A DNA stretch of 35,212 nucleotides, taken from assembly GCA_017514975.1 (NCBI GenBank), contig JAFWIF010000004.1, forward strand, positions 1 through 35,212, written 5' to 3'. The notes under the pieces were generated by a model, which was given only the letters and a program-made list of their open reading frames with translations, did not search any database and was not told the origin of the DNA. Shown piece by piece: positions 2,777-35,170 of this stretch. The position numbers were made by a program, and so were the translations under genes. Positions within the stretch are counted from its first letter, which is position 1. Every line of letters starts with the position of its first letter. The stretch is from Candidatus Saccharimonadota bacterium (GTDB lineage: Bacteria > Patescibacteriota > Saccharimonadia > Saccharimonadales > Saccharimonadaceae).

Positions 2777-3091
2777 ATGGACAGAAAAGCGGAACTTTTA
2801 GAGATCATTTGCAAGGCTGGCGACGCGGACCGCGTGAAAGCCGAGAAGCTTGTCGACGAGGTTGTATTTCTCGAAAAAAACCTTGCAGAATTGCGCCTGC
2901 TGCCTTTTATCAAGATAAACCCGAAAGACCCGACAAAACAAAAGGCGACACCAGCGGCGAAGCAATACAAAGAGTTATTGCAGCAATACAACAACACGAT
3001 GAAGCTTTTGTTGAAGATCAGCGGCGATTTGGGAGAAACCGAAGAGACAAGCCCTCTCCGTGAGTGGCTTAAATCGAGGGGCAAGGAATGA
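2777..3091 (+). CDS. terS: Terminase small subunit, P27-like
   Basis: 104 residues. The small subunit recognises the packaging site and loads the large subunit onto phage DNA. The sequence is nearly all helix. It has a charged N-terminal half (RVKAEKLVDEVVFLEKNL) and the motif LPFIKINPKDPTKQKATPA followed by AKQYKELLQQYNN, as in short P27-family small terminases of Firmicutes phages. It lies directly upstream of the large terminase and overlaps it by 4 nt (ATGA at 3088-3091). It is shorter than the usual 130-170 residues of P27 proteins and has no obvious N-terminal HTH. A second TerS-like HTH protein is encoded at 33967-34470, so which one binds DNA is open. Confidence 0.7.
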   Translation: MDRKAELLEIICKAGDADRVKAEKLVDEVVFLEKNLAELRLLPFIKINPKDPTKQKATPAAKQYKELLQQYNNTMKLLLKISGDLGETEETSPLREWLKSRGKE

Positions 3092-5892
3092 GCGCGGAAA
3101 CGTGGACGGCTGATAATTGCTATTTGCTCGAATACAAAGGGCGCATAGAATCGGGCGAGATAATCGCCGGGCAAGAGCTATACATGGAGCTTTGCAACCT
3201 GGCGGAAGACCTCAAGAACACCGACCTGTATTTTTACGACAGAACGGCGGCGCTTTTGCGGTTTGATTTTATGGAACATTGCGTAAGACTGACGAAAAGC
3301 CCGTTTTATAATCAGCCCATGCGGCTTATGCTTTGGCAAAAAGCCTTTATTGAAACGCTTTACAGTTTCAAACTTGCCGGAGAACAGACCCGCAACGGGG
3401 ATCCCGTGGACCGTTTCAAGAGCGCTTTGTTACTTATCGGGCGCAAAAATGGAAAGGCGCTTGCACTTGACACAAGGATCCCGACACCGAACGGCGACAA
3501 GACAATGGCGGATATTAAGCCGGGCGACTTTGTTTACAACGAAAACGGGTACCCCGTCGAAGTCCTTGCAACAAGTGAAATATTCAAAGACCGCACTTGT
3601 TACGAATTTACATTTGAAGACGGCGAAAAGATCATTTGTGACGCTAACCACAAGTGGACGGTACAAACCAAAGATGCAAGACGCCGGGAAAATTACACGC
3701 CTAAAACTGGAAGAAAAAGCGGCGCAAAGCACCCGTTAGAAAATGGGGCATTGTTAACTATGCAAGCCTTTGAGATGGTTGAAGACTACAAACGCCAAAG
3801 GCGTGATGGCAAAGGTATGGAATATAAATACCGCGTACCGCTGGCAAAGCCGATAGAATACCCTAAAAAAAAGCTTTTTAGTCCGTATGTTTTGGGGCTA
3901 TGGTTGGGCGACGGCGACAAAAACGACAATCGGATTGCTGTTGGCGTTGATGATTTGGAAACCCTTTTGAAAGAGCTTAAAAAAGAGGGCGTGCACGTTC
4001 AAAGCGTAAAAATGTTTTCGGGAAAATACGAAGTAAGAATCGGAGAAACCCGCAGCCATAAAACCGACACGCGCGATGCTTTTAGAGCGTTGGGCGTTTG
4101 GAAGAATAAGCACATACCCGAGGAATATTTTACCGCAAGCATTGAGCAGCGCCGCGACCTTTTATGCGGGCTTATGGACACCGACGGAACATGCAGTAAA
4201 GCGGGACAATGTGAATTTACACAGAAAAGCGAACGCATAATTAAAGATTTTTCGCGGCTGCTTACGTCATTAGGAATAAAGCACACAATAAAAGACAACG
4301 TGACGACTTGCAACGGCAGAATATTCAAAAGTTTTGTCGTTAGATTTTGGACAACAAAAAGCTTTTCGTGCTTTAGGTATCCGCGAAAGCATGAACGCCT
4401 AAAAGATCAGCTTGCAAGCCGGATGCTTTACAAGTCGATTGTTGACATAAAAGAAGTGGCAAAGCGCGATACAAAGTGCATTTGCGTAAACAGTAAAACG
4501 GGGCTTTTTTTGTGCGGAGAGCGGAACACCGTCACGCATAACTCCGAAACGTGCTCGGGACTTGCAAACGCGGAATTTATCGCGGGCAATGAGGGCGCGG
4601 ACATTGTTTGCAGCTCAAACGACGACGCGCAAGCCAGTATTGTTTACGACGCGATCGACACAATGCGGGCGCTATACGACCCAAACAGCGTCGACACGAA
4701 ACGAAACCAGCGCTTTATTCTGAACAAGGCGACAAACACAAAGATTTTCAAGCTATCGGACCGCACCCGGAACAAAGAGGGGCGAAACATAGACTGGGCG
4801 ATACTTGACGAAGCCCACGAAATGAAAAACAACGTTATCGCCAAGAGCATAGAGCAAAGCCAAAGCGTCAAAGATAACCCGAAATTTATCAAGATCACGA
4901 CCGAGGGTTTTGTCGTGGGCGGTTATCTCGACGAAGAGCTCAAAGGAGCGCGGGCGATCATCTACGGCGAGGACACCAGCATAAGCGGGCGGCGCAAGCT
5001 CCCGTGGCTATACACCCAGGACAGCGAAACGGAAATTTTCACAAACCCGCGAAGCTGGCAAAAGAGCAACCCGACAATCGGGGTTATAAAGCGCTTTGAT
5101 TATCTCGAGGAACAAGTAGACCTTGCGAAGAAATCAAAGGCGGACCGCATTTTCGTTTTGTCGAAAGACTTTAACTATAAACAGAACGGGGCGCAATCCT
5201 GGCTAAACGTCGAGGACTACGACTACGGCGCAACGTTCGATATTGAGGATTTACGCGGGGCGTTTTGTTTGGGACACGTTGACCTCGCGGAAACGACCGA
5301 CCTTGTTTGTGCAAAGGCGCTTGTTATACGTCCGGGGGACGCGACCAAGTACATTTTGACGCAGTATTTTATCCCGGAGAACAAGCTGCAGCCGGAGAAC
5401 GACGATCACACCGCAGGCGCACACTATAAAGAGTGGGTGGAAAAAGGATTTATCACCCTTAACGAGGGCAACGAAGCGGACCTGGCAAACGTGGCGGCGT
5501 GGTTTTATAAGCTCTACAAAGAACACGGGATAAAGCTTTACAAATGCGGATACGACCAAAAGTTCGCGAAAGAGTGGCTTGCTGCAATGGAAGACTACGG
5601 ATGGACAAAGGCAGCGGGCGACGTTGAAATGATTTTGCAGAACGCGCAAACGCTGTCAAATGCAATAAATCTTTGCGAAGCTGATTTTAAAAGCCGCTTA
5701 ATCAATTACAACGACAATCCCGTCGACAAATGGAATTTGTCAAACGCTTGTTTAAAGCTGAGCGAACAGCGGCAAGCGCTTATTATCAAAACCGAGAACG
5801 CCAAGAAGATCGACGGCGCCGTAACGCTGGCGAGCTTGTACGAAATGTGGCGGCGGTATAGATCAGACCTAAAGAAACTGACAGGGGGCTAA
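3088..5892 (+). CDS. terL: Terminase large subunit precursor, interrupted by an intein
   Basis: 934-residue precursor. Removing residues 124-485 leaves a 572-residue packaging motor of normal Terminase_1 (HK97-type) length. The ATPase domain has Walker A GRKNGK-S split exactly between K123 and S486 by the intein. Walker B is ILDEAHE at 572-578 with catalytic E575. The C-terminal RNase H-like nuclease has acidic residues in HVDLAETTDL (D732, D738) and KIDGAVTLA (D909). The motor pumps DNA into the prohead through the portal encoded next and cuts concatemers. The start has GAGGGG 6 nt upstream and overlaps the previous stop. Splicing must occur for the P-loop to form, so packaging activity depends on the intein. 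Confidence 0.95.
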   Translation: MSAETWTADNCYLLEYKGRIESGEIIAGQELYMELCNLAEDLKNTDLYFYDRTAALLRFDFMEHCVRLTKSPFYNQPMRLMLWQKAFIETLYSFKLAGEQTRNGDPVDRFKSALLLIGRKNGKALALDTRIPTPNGDKTMADIKPGDFVYNENGYPVEVLATSEIFKDRTCYEFTFEDGEKIICDANHKWTVQTKDARRRENYTPKTGRKSGAKHPLENGALLTMQAFEMVEDYKRQRRDGKGMEYKYRVPLAKPIEYPKKKLFSPYVLGLWLGDGDKNDNRIAVGVDDLETLLKELKKEGVHVQSVKMFSGKYEVRIGETRSHKTDTRDAFRALGVWKNKHIPEEYFTASIEQRRDLLCGLMDTDGTCSKAGQCEFTQKSERIIKDFSRLLTSLGIKHTIKDNVTTCNGRIFKSFVVRFWTTKSFSCFRYPRKHERLKDQLASRMLYKSIVDIKEVAKRDTKCICVNSKTGLFLCGERNTVTHNSETCSGLANAEFIAGNEGADIVCSSNDDAQASIVYDAIDTMRALYDPNSVDTKRNQRFILNKATNTKIFKLSDRTRNKEGRNIDWAILDEAHEMKNNVIAKSIEQSQSVKDNPKFIKITTEGFVVGGYLDEELKGARAIIYGEDTSISGRRKLPWLYTQDSETEIFTNPRSWQKSNPTIGVIKRFDYLEEQVDLAKKSKADRIFVLSKDFNYKQNGAQSWLNVEDYDYGATFDIEDLRGAFCLGHVDLAETTDLVCAKALVIRPGDATKYILTQYFIPENKLQPENDDHTAGAHYKEWVEKGFITLNEGNEADLANVAAWFYKLYKEHGIKLYKCGYDQKFAKEWLAAMEDYGWTKAAGDVEMILQNAQTLSNAINLCEADFKSRLINYNDNPVDKWNLSNACLKLSEQRQALIIKTENAKKIDGAVTLASLYEMWRRYRSDLKKLTGG
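3457..4542 (+). mobile_element. LAGLIDADG intein in terL, class 3 type
   Basis: 362-residue in-frame insertion, terL residues 124-485. The N-terminal block starts ALALDTRIPTPNGDKTM, so position 1 is Ala rather than Cys or Ser. It ends VTHN followed by Ser+1. The Hint B block reads CDANHKW (H188, W190). The F block reads KCICVNS with C464 at the site normally Asp, and the G block has T483 before HN. Trp-Cys-Thr at these places together with a non-nucleophilic first residue is the known signature of class 3 inteins, which start splicing from the internal F-block Cys. The centre holds a two-motif homing endonuclease, LGLWLGDGD (269-277) and LLCGLMDTDG (358-367), both with their acidic residues, so it may still be mobile. 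Confidence 0.93.
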
Positions 5893-20808: not shown

Positions 20809-21129
20809 TTAACCCCCTTTATAATCGCGGAGCATTTTGGCATATTCCAAAAGCCGCGCTTGCTGGCTTTCGTCCATTGACCGCGCTATCGTGTCAATTT
20901 CCACAACAAGGTCCGGGGGGCGTTCTTCTTTATCCCACCCCATGAGCACTTGCGGCGATAGGTGCAGAATTTCGGCAAGCGGTAACACGATATCGAGCGG
21001 AAACTTTTTAATTTCTTCGCTTTCATAACGATAATACGTGGCGCGGTTTATATGGAGCTTTTCGGCTATATCGTCAACGGACAGCCCAAGTTCTAGCCGC
21101 CTGGCTTTAATGCGTTCGTTTATTTCCAT
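20809..21129 (-). CDS. XRE-family lysogeny repressor (CI-like, no peptidase domain)
   Basis: 106 residues. HTH in the first 60: ERIKARRLELGLSVDDIAEKL, RATYYRYESEE, LPLAEILHLS and the typical ending PQVLMGWD. The rest is a short helical tail (ESQQARLLEYAKML) that may dimerise. There is no LexA-type peptidase, so induction may need an antirepressor or another route. It is divergent from the early operon across 185 nt that contain two promoters and TGTCGC dyads. Confidence 0.9.
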   Translation of the reverse strand: MEINERIKARRLELGLSVDDIAEKLHINRATYYRYESEEIKKFPLDIVLPLAEILHLSPQVLMGWDKEERPPDLVVEIDTIARSMDESQQARLLEYAKMLRDYKGG

Positions 21130-22179: not shown

Positions 22180-22346
22180 GCGAAGCAGCAAAAAACACCA
22201 TGAACAGTCTAACAATCGAAGAGCTTGACGCTTTGCACGTCGGTTGCGGTTTCGTGGCGATCATCAGCAACGGCACACTTTGCGCCGTAGTACCCGAGGA
22301 AAAGGCGGAGCAGGCAGAAACGGAGCGTGTAAATCGTGGCTTTTAA
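22176..22346 (+). CDS. Small unknown early protein (56 aa)
   Basis: 56 residues from an ATG overlapping the previous stop: MSEAAKNTMNSLTIEELDAL, then CGFVAIISNGTLCAVVP and an acidic end. Helix then beta hairpin. Its last codons overlap the start of the YqaJ gene by 11 nt, so the three genes are translated as a coupled block. No family recognised. Confidence 0.6.
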   Translation: MSEAAKNTMNSLTIEELDALHVGCGFVAIISNGTLCAVVPEEKAEQAETERVNRGF

Positions 22347-22998
22347 TTTGAAACGGTTTGAAACCGAAGCGGAATGGCTAGAAGCCCGCAAAAACTACAT
22401 AGGTGGAAGTGACAGCTCTTGTATCATCGGGCTCAATCCGTGGAAAAGCAATGTAGAGCTTTGGCGGGAAAAGACCGGGAGAAAAGCGCCGGACGATCTG
22501 CACGGCAACGCGGCGGTCGAGTTTGGCAAGGCAGCCGAGGAACATTTGCGCGAGCTTTTCGCGCTGGACTATAGGGAACGCGGAATCCGCGTCGATTATG
22601 CCCCTTTTAATTTTTGGACAAATACCGCATACCCATGGGCGCACGCAAGCCTTGACGGCTGGCTCTTCGAGTTCGGAACGGGCAAAAAGGGAATCTTTGA
22701 AGCGAAGACCGCGACCATAAACAGCACCGCCCAGGCGGAAAAATGGAGAAACGGGATCCCGCAAAACTATCTTTGCCAACTGCTGCACTATTTCGCAGTA
22801 ACCGGCGCGGACTTCGCGATCTTAACCGCTTATTTGCGTTATTCGTTTGAGGGCGAAGAGATCGACGTAATAGTGCGCCGCTACCGTTTAGAGCGGGAGC
22901 AGGTACAAGAACAGATTGACTATTTGATGAAGAAAGAGCGCGAGTTTTGGGAGCACGTGAAGAACGACACCGAGCCGCCGTTGTTTCTGAACATTTAA
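22336..22998 (+). CDS. YqaJ-like phage recombination exonuclease
   Basis: 220 residues from GTG at 22336. PD-(D/E)XK nuclease of the lambda Exo/YqaJ family: IGGSDSSCIIGLNPWKSNVE (22-41), acidic E62 (AVEFGKAAEE), D107 (HASLDGW), and E122-x-K124 (GIFEAKTA), then QNYLCQLLHYFAVTG, where Gln is conserved. It degrades 5' strands of double-stranded DNA ends to give 3' tails for the RecT annealing protein at 23943. The pair drives replication-linked recombination of the phage. Confidence 0.92.
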   Translation: MAFNLKRFETEAEWLEARKNYIGGSDSSCIIGLNPWKSNVELWREKTGRKAPDDLHGNAAVEFGKAAEEHLRELFALDYRERGIRVDYAPFNFWTNTAYPWAHASLDGWLFEFGTGKKGIFEAKTATINSTAQAEKWRNGIPQNYLCQLLHYFAVTGADFAILTAYLRYSFEGEEIDVIVRRYRLEREQVQEQIDYLMKKEREFWEHVKNDTEPPLFLNI

Positions 22999-23014
22999 GA
23001 GAAAAGAGGTTTAT

Positions 23015-23938
23015 ATGGAGTTTTCAATCATCCCCGGAGCTGACGGGAATTTAACTTTTAAGGATTTTGAGCAGATAAAGACCGAGCTTTCGGCAGCGTT
23101 AAAGACCTACAAAGGGATCGTTTTTCAGCCCGAAGACATAAAGGCAGCGAAAGACTACCGGGCGCACCTTAACAAGACCGCCGCAGCCTTAAAAGACAAC
23201 TTTGCGGAGAAGAAAAAAGAGTTATACGCCCAGCTTTACACGCTGGAATCGCAGACAAAAGAGCTCGTTGACATCGTGAACGACTGCACAAGCACGATCG
23301 ACGCGCAGATAAAGGCATTTGAAGCCGAGGAAAAGGCGGCGAAGCTGGCGGAGTGCAGGAAGATTTTCGACGAAGAGTTTAAGGAAATGCACGAAATATT
23401 GGTAATCCCGACATTTGAGCAGATACAGAACGAACGCTGGCTAAATAAAACCTTTACGCTTTCAAAGGTTGCGGAAGAAATGAAAGCAAGGCGCGAAGAG
23501 ATCGAACGCGACCTCGACACCCTGGATAGGCTTGAAGCGTTTAGCTTTGAAGCGAAAGAAGAGTATTTCCGAACCCTTGATATCAACAGGGCAATCGCAG
23601 AGGGGCAGCGGCAGGCAGATATACAGCGCCGCAAGGAAGAAGCAAGACGGCTCGCGGAAGAAGAAGCAGCGCGCAAGGCGGCAGAAGCCGCCGCCACGAA
23701 GCCCACAACGCCCGCAGAAGCCCCCGAAGAGGTTAAGGCGGACAACAACACCCCCGAAACCTTAACGGCGGAAATTGCCCCGTTTATCGCGGGAGAAACC
23801 ACACATATTTTGATAATGACGGTTGACAGCAAGGGGTTCCGGGCGATCATCAACGAAGAGCAGAAAGCGGAGCTCAACAGAGTTATTAAAGATTTTATCA
23901 CACGCAGCGGCGTGAAGATGGAAAGAATAGGGGGCTGA
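23015..23938 (+). CDS. DUF1351-like protein of the recombination module
   Basis: 307 residues. Residues 20-230 are a long coiled coil (DNFAEKKKELYAQLYTLESQ; REEIERDLDTLDRLEAF; QADIQRRKEEARRLAEEEAA). An Ala/Pro/Thr-rich linker (about 230-255) joins a small C-terminal alpha/beta domain with ILIMTVDSKGFRAIINEEQ. This layout, between YqaJ and RecT, matches DUF1351 proteins, whose role is unknown but which always accompany this pair. A structural or loading role in recombination is a guess. Confidence 0.8.
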   Translation: MEFSIIPGADGNLTFKDFEQIKTELSAALKTYKGIVFQPEDIKAAKDYRAHLNKTAAALKDNFAEKKKELYAQLYTLESQTKELVDIVNDCTSTIDAQIKAFEAEEKAAKLAECRKIFDEEFKEMHEILVIPTFEQIQNERWLNKTFTLSKVAEEMKARREEIERDLDTLDRLEAFSFEAKEEYFRTLDINRAIAEGQRQADIQRRKEEARRLAEEEAARKAAEAAATKPTTPAEAPEEVKADNNTPETLTAEIAPFIAGETTHILIMTVDSKGFRAIINEEQKAELNRVIKDFITRSGVKMERIGG

Positions 23939-23942
23939 CAAT

Positions 23943-24797
23943 ATGGCAGAAATCAAGAACACGAACATTATGCCCGTAAACGAGGGCAAAGGGGGCTTCA
24001 CGGCTTATTTATCCGGCGAAGCGGTAAAAAGGCAGATAAACGCCACTTTGGGCGGAGACAACGGGCAGCGCTTTTGCGCCGCGCTCATTTCCACAGTAAG
24101 CGCGACAGCAGGTCTTAAAGAGTGCAACAACGCGTCAATCGTGGCGGGCGCCCTTTTGGGCGAGAGCTTGAAGCTTTCCCCGCTGCCGACGTTGGGGCAA
24201 TATTACCTGGTACCGTTCAACAAAAAAGCGCAATTTGTGCTCGGGTATAAGGGCATGATACAGCTTGCCGCACGTTCCGGGCAGTATTCGAAAATAAACG
24301 TTGTAGCGATCAAACAGGGCGAGCTGGTTAAATATGACGCCTTGAATGAGGAAATCGAGGTAAATCTCATCCAGGACGAAGAAGCACGCGAGAACGCGCC
24401 CACGACAGGCTACTACGCAATGTTTGAATACGTCAACGGCTTTAAAAAGACCCTTTATTGGAGCCGCGCGAAAATGGAGAAGCACGCCGAGCGCTATTCA
24501 AAGGGCTACGCGGCGCACAAAGGCTACACCTTTTGGGAAAAGGACTTTGACGAAATGGCAAAAAAGACAATGCTCCGACAGATTATCAGCAAATGGGGCG
24601 TTATGAGCGTTGACTTACAAACAGCATATATGGCTGACGGCGCCACGATCAAAGAGGATTTAACCCCCGAGTTTATCGAGATCGAAGAAAACGCGCCCGC
24701 CGAGGTTGCCGCGGAAGAGCCGCCGAAAGAGATAACGGCAAAAGATATCCGCAAGACCGCCGAAGCGGCGGCAAATGCTACCGACGACCTTTTTTAA
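23943..24797 (+). CDS. recT: RecT-family single-strand annealing protein
   Basis: 284 residues. Recognised by NATLGGDNGQRFCAALISTV, CNNASIVAGALLGESLKLSP, TLGQYYLVPFNKKAQFVLGY and GMIQLAARSGQYSKINVVAI, then FEYVNGFKKTLYWSRAKMEKH and FDEMAKKTMLRQIISKWG. These are the conserved blocks of RecT, in order. It coats 3' tails made by the YqaJ nuclease and pairs them with homologous DNA. The acidic tail (about 245-284) with EEPPKE may bind host SSB or the nuclease. The start follows the previous stop by 4 nt. Confidence 0.95.
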   Translation: MAEIKNTNIMPVNEGKGGFTAYLSGEAVKRQINATLGGDNGQRFCAALISTVSATAGLKECNNASIVAGALLGESLKLSPLPTLGQYYLVPFNKKAQFVLGYKGMIQLAARSGQYSKINVVAIKQGELVKYDALNEEIEVNLIQDEEARENAPTTGYYAMFEYVNGFKKTLYWSRAKMEKHAERYSKGYAAHKGYTFWEKDFDEMAKKTMLRQIISKWGVMSVDLQTAYMADGATIKEDLTPEFIEIEENAPAEVAAEEPPKEITAKDIRKTAEAAANATDDLF

Positions 24798-24844
24798 AGG
24801 TATTGTATCTCCTTTGGAATATATCACTACCCGAAGCAGGCGGC

Positions 24845-24880
24845 GCGGGTCCGGCATAACCCGCCCGCCCGTGCGACGGG
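24845..24880 (+). repeat. Tandem GC hairpins before the DUF1064 gene
   Basis: GCGGGT (24845-24850) pairs with ACCCGC (24859-24864), and CCCGT-GCG-ACGGG (24868-24880) forms a second hairpin with a three-base loop. No T run follows, so they look like mRNA stabilising or spacing structures in the 104-nt gap rather than a terminator. Confidence 0.5.
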
Positions 24881-24901
24881 TAAAGCAACGGGGTTTTATT
24901 T

Positions 24902-25318
24902 ATGGCTTATTACAGACGATCCGCCCGGAACAAATACGGGAACAAAAAAGTTATATCGGGCGGCATGACATACGACAGCAAGGCGGAAGCAATGCGCGGG
25001 CGTGAGCTGGAATTGCTGCAGGCAGCAGGCAAGATTGAGAAACTACAGCGGCAAGTCAAATTTACACTTATCCCCGCACAATATGAGCTTTCGGACCAGG
25101 TTTACACGCGGGGCAAGCTTAAAGGACAGCCAAAGCGCGGAAAGCTTATTGAGCGTGAGGTCGTTTATACTGCAGATTTTGTTTACATCAACGAGAACGG
25201 CGAGAAGATCGTCGAAGACGTAAAAGGCTTTGCTACCAAAGATTATATTTTGAAACGCAAATTAATGCTTTTTTTCTTTGGGATCCGCGTTCACGAAATA
25301 AGGGGGCGCACGCGATGA
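24902..25318 (+). CDS. DUF1064 nuclease-like protein
   Basis: 138 residues: KYGNKKVISGGMTYDSKAEA near the start, ELLQAAGKIEKLQRQVKFTL, YTADFVYINENGEKIVEDVK and KDYILKRKLMLFF. This is the DUF1064 pattern, a PD-(D/E)XK-like fold (candidate residues E35 of SKAEA, the D of YTADF and E-D-V-K) often assigned as a Holliday-junction-type or replication nuclease in phages. It overlaps the next gene by 4 nt (ATGA). Confidence 0.85.
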   Translation: MAYYRRSARNKYGNKKVISGGMTYDSKAEAMRGRELELLQAAGKIEKLQRQVKFTLIPAQYELSDQVYTRGKLKGQPKRGKLIEREVVYTADFVYINENGEKIVEDVKGFATKDYILKRKLMLFFFGIRVHEIRGRTR

Positions 25319-25778: not shown

Positions 25779-25955
25779 ATGAACGAAGAAAAAATAATTT
25801 TAACGCCCGACCAGGTTGCGGCGGTTTGCGATCATTATTGCCGCTTTCCGCGAGAGTACGACGAAGACCTGCACGGGGTCCCGCTGGCGGAAAGCCACAT
25901 CTGCAAAAACTGCCCGCTGACGCTGGCGGCAGAAAGAGAGAACACGGAATCATGA
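25779..25955 (+). CDS. Small Cys-containing early protein
   Basis: 58 residues from ATG at 25779: LTPDQVAAVCDHYCRFPREY, then a GVPLAESHICKNCPLTLAAE ending. Two Cys pairs (C-x3-C and C-x2-C) with His suggest zinc binding. This short family is common next to the methyltransferase or replication genes of Clostridia phages; its role is unknown. The stop overlaps the methyltransferase start (ATGA at 25952). Confidence 0.7.
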   Translation: MNEEKIILTPDQVAAVCDHYCRFPREYDEDLHGVPLAESHICKNCPLTLAAERENTES

Positions 25956-27364
25956 ACGGATTAATTATTGATTGTTTTGCAGGCGGCGGGGGCGCGTCCG
26001 TCGGAATTGAAATGGCGCTCGGGCGTTCGGTTGATATAGCTATCAATCACGACCCGCAGGCAATACTCATGCACAAGACAAACCATTGTAAAACGTTGCA
26101 CTTGACCGAGGACATTTTCGAGGTTGACTTAAAAAAATACGTTAAGGACAAGCGCGTGGCGCTCATGTGGGCGAGCCCCGATTGCACCAGCCACAGCAAA
26201 GCAAAAGGCGGGCAGCCTAGAAACCAGGGTTTGAGGATACTGCCCTGGGCGGTATATAAGCACGCAAAAGCGATCTTGCCGGACGTTATCATCATGGAAA
26301 ACGTCGAAGAGATACAGCAATGGGGACCGCTTGACGAAAACGGGCACCCGATAAAAGAGCGCATGGGCGAAGAATACAAGCGTTTTATAACGGCTATGAA
26401 GTCGCTGGGCTACGTGTTTGAGAGCAAAGAGCTTGTTGCGGCAGACTACGGAGCACCGACCACCCGGAAACGTTGGTACGCGATTTTTCGACGTGACGGG
26501 CGCCCGATCATCTTTCCCGCGCCCACTCACAGCAAGACGGGATCCGACGGGCTGAAAAAGTGGCGCCCGGTTTCCGAGGTTTTAGACTTCGGCAATTTGG
26601 GTAAATCCATTTTCGACAGAAAAAAGCCCCTGGCGGAAAACACGCTCCGCAGAATCGCGCGGGGTATAGAAAAATTCGTTGTAAACGGCGGGGACCAAGA
26701 ATTTATTATCCAGTACCATTCCGAAACCGCAAAGGGCGATTTTAGGGGGCAAAGCGTAGCGGGTCCGCTCATGACGATAGACACCAGCAACCGCTACGGG
26801 CTTGTTTCTGCTTTTATCTCGAAGTTTTACAAAACGGGAATCGGGCAAAGCTGCCTCGAGCCGCTGCACACGATCACGACCAGCGCCGGACACTTCGGGC
26901 AGGTTAGTGTCTTAATGACCGAGTGGGAAAAGTTAAAGGCGGCGGGCGTCGATGAAGAAACGGCGAAGAAATGCACGGCGGTTTCCCGGTTTATAGTGGA
27001 ATACTACGGCAGCGGGACCGCTCAAAGCGTCGACGAGCCGTTGCACACGATTGTAACAAAAGACCGCTTTGCATTGATAACGGTTTTAGGCAAAGAGCAC
27101 GTTATCCTTGATATTTTCTTGCGTATGCTCACGCCGGAAGAATTGAAGCTGGCGCAAGGTTTCCCGAAAGACTACATCATAGACCGCGACTATAAATGGC
27201 GACCCTACCCGACAGCGGAGCAGGTAAAGAGGATCGGGAACAGCGTCGTTCCGATTATGGCACAAGCCCTCGTTTCTGCAAATTGCCCGTATCTCAAAGA
27301 GGGCGAACGGGAGCCGAATTTGATGATTGAGGAAGACGACAACAGGCAAATGTGCTTTGCATAG
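25952..27364 (+). CDS. dcm: C5-cytosine DNA methyltransferase
   Basis: 470 residues from the ATG at 25952; a longer frame exists upstream but is covered by the 58-residue gene. Motif I FAGGGGASVG (9-18) binds S-adenosylmethionine. The catalytic loop is ASPDCTSHSKAKGG (C78) instead of the usual PPCQ. Motif VI is IMENVEEI (E116), motif VIII APTTRKRWY, and the end has LTPEELKLAQGFPKDY and RIGNSVVP (motif X). Between 245 and 385 there are two related blocks, FISKFYKTGIGQSCLEPLHT and FIVEYYGSGTAQSVDEPLHT, probably in the target recognition region. It probably masks phage DNA from host restriction; no partner endonuclease is seen. Confidence 0.93.
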   Translation: MNGLIIDCFAGGGGASVGIEMALGRSVDIAINHDPQAILMHKTNHCKTLHLTEDIFEVDLKKYVKDKRVALMWASPDCTSHSKAKGGQPRNQGLRILPWAVYKHAKAILPDVIIMENVEEIQQWGPLDENGHPIKERMGEEYKRFITAMKSLGYVFESKELVAADYGAPTTRKRWYAIFRRDGRPIIFPAPTHSKTGSDGLKKWRPVSEVLDFGNLGKSIFDRKKPLAENTLRRIARGIEKFVVNGGDQEFIIQYHSETAKGDFRGQSVAGPLMTIDTSNRYGLVSAFISKFYKTGIGQSCLEPLHTITTSAGHFGQVSVLMTEWEKLKAAGVDEETAKKCTAVSRFIVEYYGSGTAQSVDEPLHTIVTKDRFALITVLGKEHVILDIFLRMLTPEELKLAQGFPKDYIIDRDYKWRPYPTAEQVKRIGNSVVPIMAQALVSANCPYLKEGEREPNLMIEEDDNRQMCFA

Positions 27365-33966: not shown

Positions 33967-34470
33967 ATCGAGAAAAAGCAGAACGCAAAGAAGCCCCAAA
34001 AGAAGAAAATGGGGCGCCCGAGCGTATATGAAGACAGAATAAAACCATACTTGCCAAAAATCCACGAGTGGATCCAAGAGAAGTCCGAAAATCAGATAGC
34101 CCAAATATTGGGCGTAAGTATATCAGCGTGGCGGAAATACAGGGAACAGCATCCCGAATTTAAAGAAGCTTTGAAGCACGGGCGCGACGACCTTGTAAAG
34201 ACACTTTACAGCACACTCATAAAAAAAGCCGAGGGGTTCCAGTACACGGAATCCAAGACCATTGAGGAACGAAACCCCGATACGGGCGCCCTTGTGGTGA
34301 CACGCAAAGAGACATACACGCGAACAGCGCTCCCGGACGTTGCGGCGCTTAATTTACTTTTAAAGAACTACGACCGCGAAAATTGGGCGAATGACCCTCA
34401 AATGCTCGAATTAAGGAAACAGGAAATCGAGATACAGAAGCAGAAAGCGGAAGACGCGGGGTGGAGCTGA
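33967..34470 (+). CDS. HTH protein, TerS-like (second small-terminase candidate)
   Basis: Core from the ATG at 34009 is 153 residues: GRPSVYEDRIKPYLPKIHEW, KSENQIAQILGVSISAWRKY and EHPEFKEALKHGRDDLVKTL, followed by KAEGFQYTESKTIEE and ALPDVAALNLLLKNYDREN. This HTH plus central domain resembles small terminases of the GRPSKY type. A good AAGGAG (33952-33957) fits a start at ATC 33967, adding 14 basic residues (EKKQNAKKPQKKK); the ATG at 34009 has only a poor site. With the P27-like protein at 2777 the phage has two TerS-like genes. Confidence 0.7.
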   Translation: MEKKQNAKKPQKKKMGRPSVYEDRIKPYLPKIHEWIQEKSENQIAQILGVSISAWRKYREQHPEFKEALKHGRDDLVKTLYSTLIKKAEGFQYTESKTIEERNPDTGALVVTRKETYTRTALPDVAALNLLLKNYDRENWANDPQMLELRKQEIEIQKQKAEDAGWS

Positions 34471-34477
34471 TAAAGAT

Positions 34478-35170
34478 ATGTTTAGGCTTGAAACCTTTTA
34501 CCAGTCTAAAGAGTGGCTGGCTTTTCGTATGCAGGTTATAGAAGCCCGGACAGCCGAGGACGGGTATGTGTACGACGAAGTGACACACAAGCCCATTTTG
34601 AGGGCTTACGACCTTATACTACACCATAAAATTGAGCTGACGGACGAAAACGTCAACGATTTTAATATAAGCCTTAACCCCGACAATATTTTGATTGTTT
34701 CACATAAGACCCACAACAGGATCCATGATAATTTCGGGACGATCAGACGGCAGCAGGTTTTTATCGTTTACGGTCCGCCTTTATCCGGCAAGACAACCTG
34801 GGTGCATGAGAACAAAGGCGCCGGGGATTTGGTTGTTGATATGGACAGCATTTGGGAGTGCATAAGCGGCGGCAAAAGATACGACAAGCCGAACAGGCTA
34901 AAAGAAAACGCTTTCGCGGTCCGTGACTGTCTTCTTGATTGCGTTAAGTATCGGCGCGGCAAATGGAACAACGCCTATATAATCGGCGGCTATCCGCTGC
35001 AGAGTGAGCGCGACAGAATAGCCCGAGATTTGGCGGCGCGGCTGATATTTATTGACACCAGCGAAGCGGAGTGCTTAACACGTTTAGACGCTGACGAAGC
35101 ACGGCGCGGGATCCCGGAGTACGCGGGATATATTAAAGAGTGGTTTAATCGCTACAGACTGACGGGCTAA
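34478..35170 (+). CDS. HNH-like/P-loop kinase fusion protein
   Basis: 230 residues. Residues 1-88 have the phage HNH layout FYQSKEWLAFRMQVIEAR, LHHKIELTDENVNDFNISL and LNPDNILIVSHKTHNRIHDN (H49, H50, N70, H79, H83), but the zinc Cys pair usually found between the second and third block is missing (VYDEVTHKPIL in its place). Residues 93-230 form an AAA/kinase-like domain with Walker A YGPPLSGKTTW (G99-T106), a D-x-D in VVDMDSIW, and IFIDTSEAECLTRL. Such fusions appear near terminase genes; HNH proteins help packaging in cos phages. It starts 7 nt after the HTH gene and is the last gene before the right end. Confidence 0.8.
   Translation: MFRLETFYQSKEWLAFRMQVIEARTAEDGYVYDEVTHKPILRAYDLILHHKIELTDENVNDFNISLNPDNILIVSHKTHNRIHDNFGTIRRQQVFIVYGPPLSGKTTWVHENKGAGDLVVDMDSIWECISGGKRYDKPNRLKENAFAVRDCLLDCVKYRRGKWNNAYIIGGYPLQSERDRIARDLAARLIFIDTSEAECLTRLDADEARRGIPEYAGYIKEWFNRYRLTG

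Follow-up and report, generated by a model that had tools for sequence, protein, structure and literature searches.

What interrupts the large terminase gene (terL) near the left end of the window (the whole 35,212-nucleotide stretch of DNA analysed, a contig assigned to Candidatus Saccharimonadota), and by what route could an intact packaging enzyme still be made from it? The gene (3088..5892, + strand) is a single open reading frame with an ATG start and no internal stop, encoding a precursor of 934 residues, of which 572 are expected to remain after splicing. Its N-extein (residues 1-123; 3088..3456, +), delimited by comparison with empty sites, ends in LLLIGRKNGK, the Walker A motif through its Lys; the insertion (precursor residues 124-485, Ala124 to Asn485; 3457..4542, +) comprises 362 residues that begin ALALDTRIPTPN and end NTVTHN; and the C-extein (4543..5892, +, stop codon included) opens with the Walker A Ser (Ser+1, the presumed nucleophile of the second branch) and carries the remaining ATPase and the nuclease domain. 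In the C-terminal flank Pfam recognizes a TerL nuclease domain (3.9e-21) and a TerL ATPase domain (1.1e-6); its matches within the insertion are to LAGLIDADG_3 (3.4e-9) and Hom_end (9.4e-5), and there Pfam, alignment and predicted structure together place intein blocks A/B and F/G on either side of a LAGLIDADG endonuclease. An in-frame intein insertion in terL is thereby confirmed. The coordinates and residue numbers given in the earlier note agree with the open reading frame and the junctions, its placement of the split exactly between Lys and Ser of GRKNGK-S is borne out by the flanks GRKNGK and SETCSG, and translation and alignment alike give Ala as the first intein residue, as it had stated.

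Relatives of the gene display the same site unoccupied. At 105 of 106 close TerL loci (about 102 contigs, four loci being second cuts of contigs already counted) the gene is uninterrupted at the insertion site, and an intein match occurs in none of them; the one other locus (L008), whose TerL is 97% identical across the portion present, begins downstream of the site. The window flanks, when joined, align with an inteinless TerL (L002) at 89% identity over 566 columns with the junction unbroken and its residues (IGRKNGKSET) identical, and with five further TerLs at 72-77% identity, again with an unbroken junction. A search with the precursor as query recovered seven close TerLs, six of them empty and one starting past the site; the query of the wider TerL searches was built from inteinless TerLs and may favour inteinless matches, and one search for TerL relatives kept the best 80 of 186. 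The intein-free sister alleles, up to 89% identical, would serve well alongside the window allele in a test of homing. At the position preceding the Walker A Lys, the close inteinless TerLs (L002-L007, L068-L166) also differ among themselves: Thr stands there in 77 of 105, giving an unusual RKNTKS P-loop, and Gly in no more than 14. Escape from homing was considered as an explanation of this replacement and dropped, because V, I, A or T occurs at the same position in some intein-bearing TerLs.

Class 3 inteins are distinguished by Trp at B:12, Cys at F:4, Thr at G:5 and Ser or Thr at +1, and splice through two successive branched intermediates (PMC5222942), a description with which PMC7664689 and PMC6195587 agree. 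The window intein has each of these residues together with a position 1 that is not a nucleophile: Ala1 (3457..3459, +; shared by 80 of the 102 distinct complete inteins, its own counted); His65 at B:10 (3649..3651, +; 102 of 102); Trp67 at B:12 (3655..3657, +; 101 of 102); Cys341 at F:4, the presumed initiating nucleophile (4477..4479, +; 102 of 102); Thr360-His361-Asn362 at G:5-7 (4534..4542, +; Thr and the His-Asn end each in 102 of 102); and Ser+1 (Ser or Thr in 101 of 102). Trp67, Cys341 and Thr360, which make up the W-C-T triplet, are W190, C464 and T483 of the precursor. The set of 102, in which the window is counted, consists of inteins matched at both ends (132 loci, 120 complete, 102 distinct); it retains Vibrio D128 (L067), with Asn for Trp, and excludes LfeInf (L063), which has Phe, Cys and Ser at the three positions and thus counts against a uniform triplet. 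In a smaller alignment of 35 distinct inteins (that of the window, 16 taken from viral contigs, 17 belonging to named phages and one from another genome), C is present in all 35, W in 33 and T in 34, the exceptions being Vibrio D128 and LfeInf; identical inteins are collapsed in it, the partial loci L044, L047 and L066 are omitted, L022 and L023 are without their N-terminal part, and L035 and L038 begin late as aligned.

Solved class 3 inteins of bacterial DnaB, from Mycobacterium smegmatis and M. chimaera, and a Gaia-type TerL served as comparators in place of the Deinococcus radiodurans Snf2 intein. The insertion aligns ungapped with residues 1-70 of 6bs8 and residues 1-69 of 6rix and 6riy (E 2.5e-14 to 1.6e-13), so that the match to inteins is far beyond chance. 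The segment from C341 to THN lies on blocks F and G of the same three structures, as a short stretch whose own score is close to nil (-0.7 to 2.7 bits). A class 1 reading was rejected, as position 1 is Ala rather than Cys, Ser or Thr and the triplet is present; the triplet discriminates between classes, since three changes (C1A, F65W and D107C, according to the title of entry 6riz) were required for class 1 gp41-1 to bear it. The earlier assignment to class 3, with W, C and T at the B, F and G positions, accordingly holds in the alignments with 6bs8 and with the 102 inteins.

The predicted structure supports a fold made up of an intein and a LAGLIDADG endonuclease. An AlphaFold2 model of the intein, computed from a 17-row alignment (mean pLDDT 88.9, pTM 0.86), has the Hint fold with blocks A, B, F and G and superposes by VIA-align on class 3 M. 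smegmatis DnaB (6bs8_C) with Z 23.2 and an rmsd of 1.2 Å over 125 of 125 residues, and on PI-SceI (1ef0_A) with Z 29.0 and 3.5 Å over 335 residues; PI-SceI entries rank first in Foldseek, which also matched 6bs8 and I-DmoI. The absence of a family from the VIA-align rows was given no weight as evidence. Class 1 gp41-1 (6qaz) superposes closely as well (Z 19.7, 1.6 Å, 125 residues), and a lower score (Z 16.1) comes from 6zgq, a split intein of class 3; therefore the fold alone cannot fix the class, which rests on the residues. The endonuclease is identified by its Pfam LAGLIDADG_3 match, by the resemblance of the predicted structure to PI-SceI and I-DmoI, and by two motifs, LGLWLGDG with catalytic Asp152 (3910..3912, +; kept in 99 of 102 inteins) and LCGLMDTDG with catalytic Asp243 (4183..4185, +; kept in 101 of 102); both Asp residues are intact, in line with the earlier note's reading of the motifs. 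Taken together, these features argue very strongly for a class 3 intein, complete in length and equipped with a LAGLIDADG homing endonuclease, that splits the Walker A motif of TerL between Lys and Ser in a siphovirus-like, probably temperate phage.

Projected onto this anatomy, conservation, predicted fold and set of empty sister alleles, splicing of the window intein would proceed in the class 3 order of steps: attack by Cys341 (F:4) on the Lys123-Ala1 peptide bond, giving a thioester-branched intermediate; acceptance of the N-extein by Ser+1, giving a second branched intermediate; cyclization of Asn362 with the assistance of His361; and an acyl shift yielding an intact TerL of 572 residues with GRKNGKS restored. 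Homing would consist of cleavage of intein-free terL alleles by the endonuclease and copying of the intein into them. Slow splicing or a dead endonuclease could be invisible in a sequence such as this one.

A TerL precursor with a split P-loop should be inactive, and splicing of TerL has been argued to be necessary for formation of the active site and of the complex (PMC5050341). The precursor may be unable to bind ATP, and splicing may control packaging, as the earlier note proposed. An elaboration, which would add to the class 3 reading rather than replace it, is that the intein is regulated, an oxidized pair of Cys48 and Cys341 (perhaps with Cys343) keeping TerL as an inactive precursor until conditions suit packaging; we consider this unlikely. 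Cys48 (3598..3600, +) aligns with the redox-active Cys48 of the M. smegmatis DnaB intein DnaBi1, in which a Cys48-Cys118 disulfide forms under H2O2 and splicing is inhibited (PMC6195587); the window intein has Cys at both of these positions, and Cys48 is found in 62 of the 102 inteins, its own counted. However, Cys48 may serve splicing as such, every Cys48 mutant tried in DnaBi1 having lost splicing, and the two Cys residues are 11-12 Å apart in the DnaBi1 crystal (PMC6195587); moreover, five phage TerL inteins spliced readily in a reporter, with precursor readily visible for one only (PMC5050341). In its specific form, a reversible Cys48-Cys341 disulfide beside Cys343 (4483..4485, +; second Cys of a CIC sequence, the CxC arrangement occurring in 2 of 102 inteins, those of the window and L167) would keep the P-loop of TerL split until the cell interior is reducing. 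We regard such a redox-gated switch as decidedly unlikely; if it were real, packaging would wait on conditions. The combination of Cys48 with the F:4 Cys is the strongest pointer to possible regulation and makes redox control testable in a packaging enzyme.

It is very unlikely that the insertion is a splicing-dead relic that now just breaks terL in a defective prophage. The contig belongs to a draft genome of 39 contigs, and the intein has a long end branch (0.72) in the intein tree; against this, the frame of 362 codons is open, the catalytic residues for splicing and both endonuclease Asp residues are intact, and open reading frames for portal, head protease, capsid, tail and integrase are present. 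TerL is essential for packaging, and a dead intein should therefore be purged from a live phage. A class 2-type intein, whose Ser+1 would act straight on the N-terminal junction with C341 in a helper role only, would fit Ala as first residue, class 2 like class 3 being without a nucleophile at position 1 (PMC5222942), but it was rejected and deserves hardly any credence, as the W-C-T triplet, described as exclusive to class 3 in PMC7664689 and PMC5222942, is complete in 101 of the 102 inteins including that of the window.

The class 3 intein appears to have entered this terL horizontally. In a tree of TerL exteins built from 40 chosen rows, the TerL of the window is sister to the empty L002 (SH-aLRT 98), with the empty L146 alongside (100), deep among empty relatives, and three changes of the intein label are needed; in the intein tree the window joins L170 (96). 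Both are quick trees of chosen rows, the extein tree being without bootstrap and having long branches elsewhere. Among the matches listed, the most similar intein (L167) is 51% identical to that of the window, in an extein only 32% identical, and eight TerLs with inteins 45% identical to the window's have exteins just 18-26% identical to its own. The simplest reading of these sequences is a fairly recent horizontal acquisition, after this TerL and L002 had diverged; repeated loss of the intein in the sister TerLs is a possible alternative. Base composition is a weak sign of foreign origin, because the overall and third-position GC contents of the intein (0.45/0.49), lower than those of the exteins (0.49/0.59 and 0.50/0.64), have a near counterpart in the adjoining portal gene (0.46/0.57). 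DNA identity to L002 is 77-80% just upstream of the site, 87-92% across the first four 60-base steps downstream and 67-95% elsewhere, a profile too noisy for a co-conversion tract to be claimed.

The phage is probably temperate, because the window encodes a phage integrase (19753-20805, - strand; Pfam 4.2e-25) and, beside it, a small repressor-like protein (20809-21129, -). At the right end lie two open reading frames (34009-34470 and 34478-35170) with matches to terminase small subunit families and, for the second, to HNH endonuclease and AAA_33 models as well; since terL lies at the opposite end, the contig could represent a permuted circle, although no terminal repeat or overlap marking a complete circular phage genome was found in it. 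Consecutive open reading frames for a YqaJ exonuclease, DUF1351, RecT and DUF1064 (22336-25318) form a phage recombination cassette. A C-5 cytosine methylase of 512 residues with a TTG start (25826-27364) matches a 324-position model across residues 47-483, possibly on account of an insertion or a long target-recognition region. The relatives of the window TerL come largely from animal-gut metagenome-assembled genomes; TerLs at least 71% identical to it occur in metagenome-assembled genomes labelled Alphaproteobacteria, Bacteroidota, Elusimicrobiota and Clostridia, and no close TerL was found in 44 genomes of the same genus, of which four gave any match, the best being 31% identical across a portion of the protein. 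Among the matches with a named host, the nearest are the Butyrivibrio phages Arian and Bo-Finn, 43.9% identical over the C-extein, and the TerL of Arian carries no intein. Similar TerLs thus span unrelated phyla and none is close in the same genus, and the contig may be misbinned.

Inteins of this kind are widespread in phages. The insertion has matches in 762 of 50,697 phage records at E<=0.01, of which 517 cover at least 80% of it, the 762 including matches to the endonuclease part only and not each having been checked for class; viral contigs hold at least 574 intein relatives, of which the best 80 were kept. The description of class 3 in the earlier note as rare is therefore wrong for phages, these 762 records standing beside an inspected set in which all but one of the 102 inteins bear W, C and T. 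Insertion junctions in that set fall between Lys and Ser or Thr in 82 cases, with Gly before the Lys in 68. Where the host is TerL-like, 42 of 45 inteins (window counted) have the Lys-Ser or Lys-Thr junction, which indicates that class 3-like inteins of TerL genes prefer this point in the P-loop. The original class 3 paper reportedly names the Bethlehem DnaB intein in its title. Mycobacteriophage Bethlehem gp51, which had been suggested as a class 3 yardstick, is an unsuitable one: PMC5050341 presents gp51 as an RDF intein, treats it alongside class 1 and gives gp10 as the Bethlehem TerL1-c intein, at a class 3 site.

TerL is described as the commonest intein host in mycobacteriophages, with site a a classic P-loop insertion between Lys and Thr and sites c and e class 3; two endonucleases of the TerL inteins examined cut, and Gaia gp2 and Bethlehem gp10 are among the five that splice in the reporter, the endonuclease of Bethlehem gp10 cleaving intein-free terL (PMC5050341). 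Gaia gp2 (TerL1-e), read here through Nebkiss gp2 (L048), which has the same match scores, is 36.0% identical to the window intein over 362 of 362 residues, lies in TerL and splices (PMC5050341). Nebkiss gp2 has, like the window, Ala1, W, C and T and the junction THN followed by S, whereas TerL1-e sits in the Walker B motif of TerL (PMC5050341) and the window intein at the P-loop between Lys and Ser. Mosby gp8 (L061) shares with the window the Walker A site before Ser or Thr, Ala1 and the W, C and T residues, but its intein is 29% and its extein 19% identical and its +1 residue is Thr. From its junction, RKNGK followed by T, Mosby gp8 is probably of the TerL1-a type, and site a is outside the five TerL inteins reported in PMC5050341 as tested for splicing.

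The DnaB inteins of M. smegmatis (intein 1, 6bs8) and M. chimaera (DnaB1, 6rix) resemble that of the window in their class 3 splicing domain, Cys48 and F:4 Cys, and DnaBi1 of M. smegmatis also in its P-loop position before Ser (PMC6195587); they differ in being small (139 and 145 residues) and in residing in a bacterial replicative helicase, and DnaBi1 of M. smegmatis is described as being without an endonuclease (PMC6195587). Three TerL inteins from IMG/VR (L167, L169 and L170), the most similar among the matches listed (51, 48 and 49% identical), occupy the same site, RKNGK before S or T, and have W, C and T, L170 starting with Asp as aligned; unlike their inteins, their TerLs are distant from that of the window (32-44% identical), and thus intein and TerL are without one close shared history. 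PI-SceI, the VMA intein, has the same combination of a Hint domain with a two-motif LAGLIDADG endonuclease; unlike the window intein, it is a class 1 intein with Cys1 and interrupts the yeast V-ATPase. P-loop inteins of TerL and class 3 inteins of TerL are thus already published, and to these the window adds what appears, by its residues, to be a clean class 3 intein of full length whose endonuclease is apparently intact.
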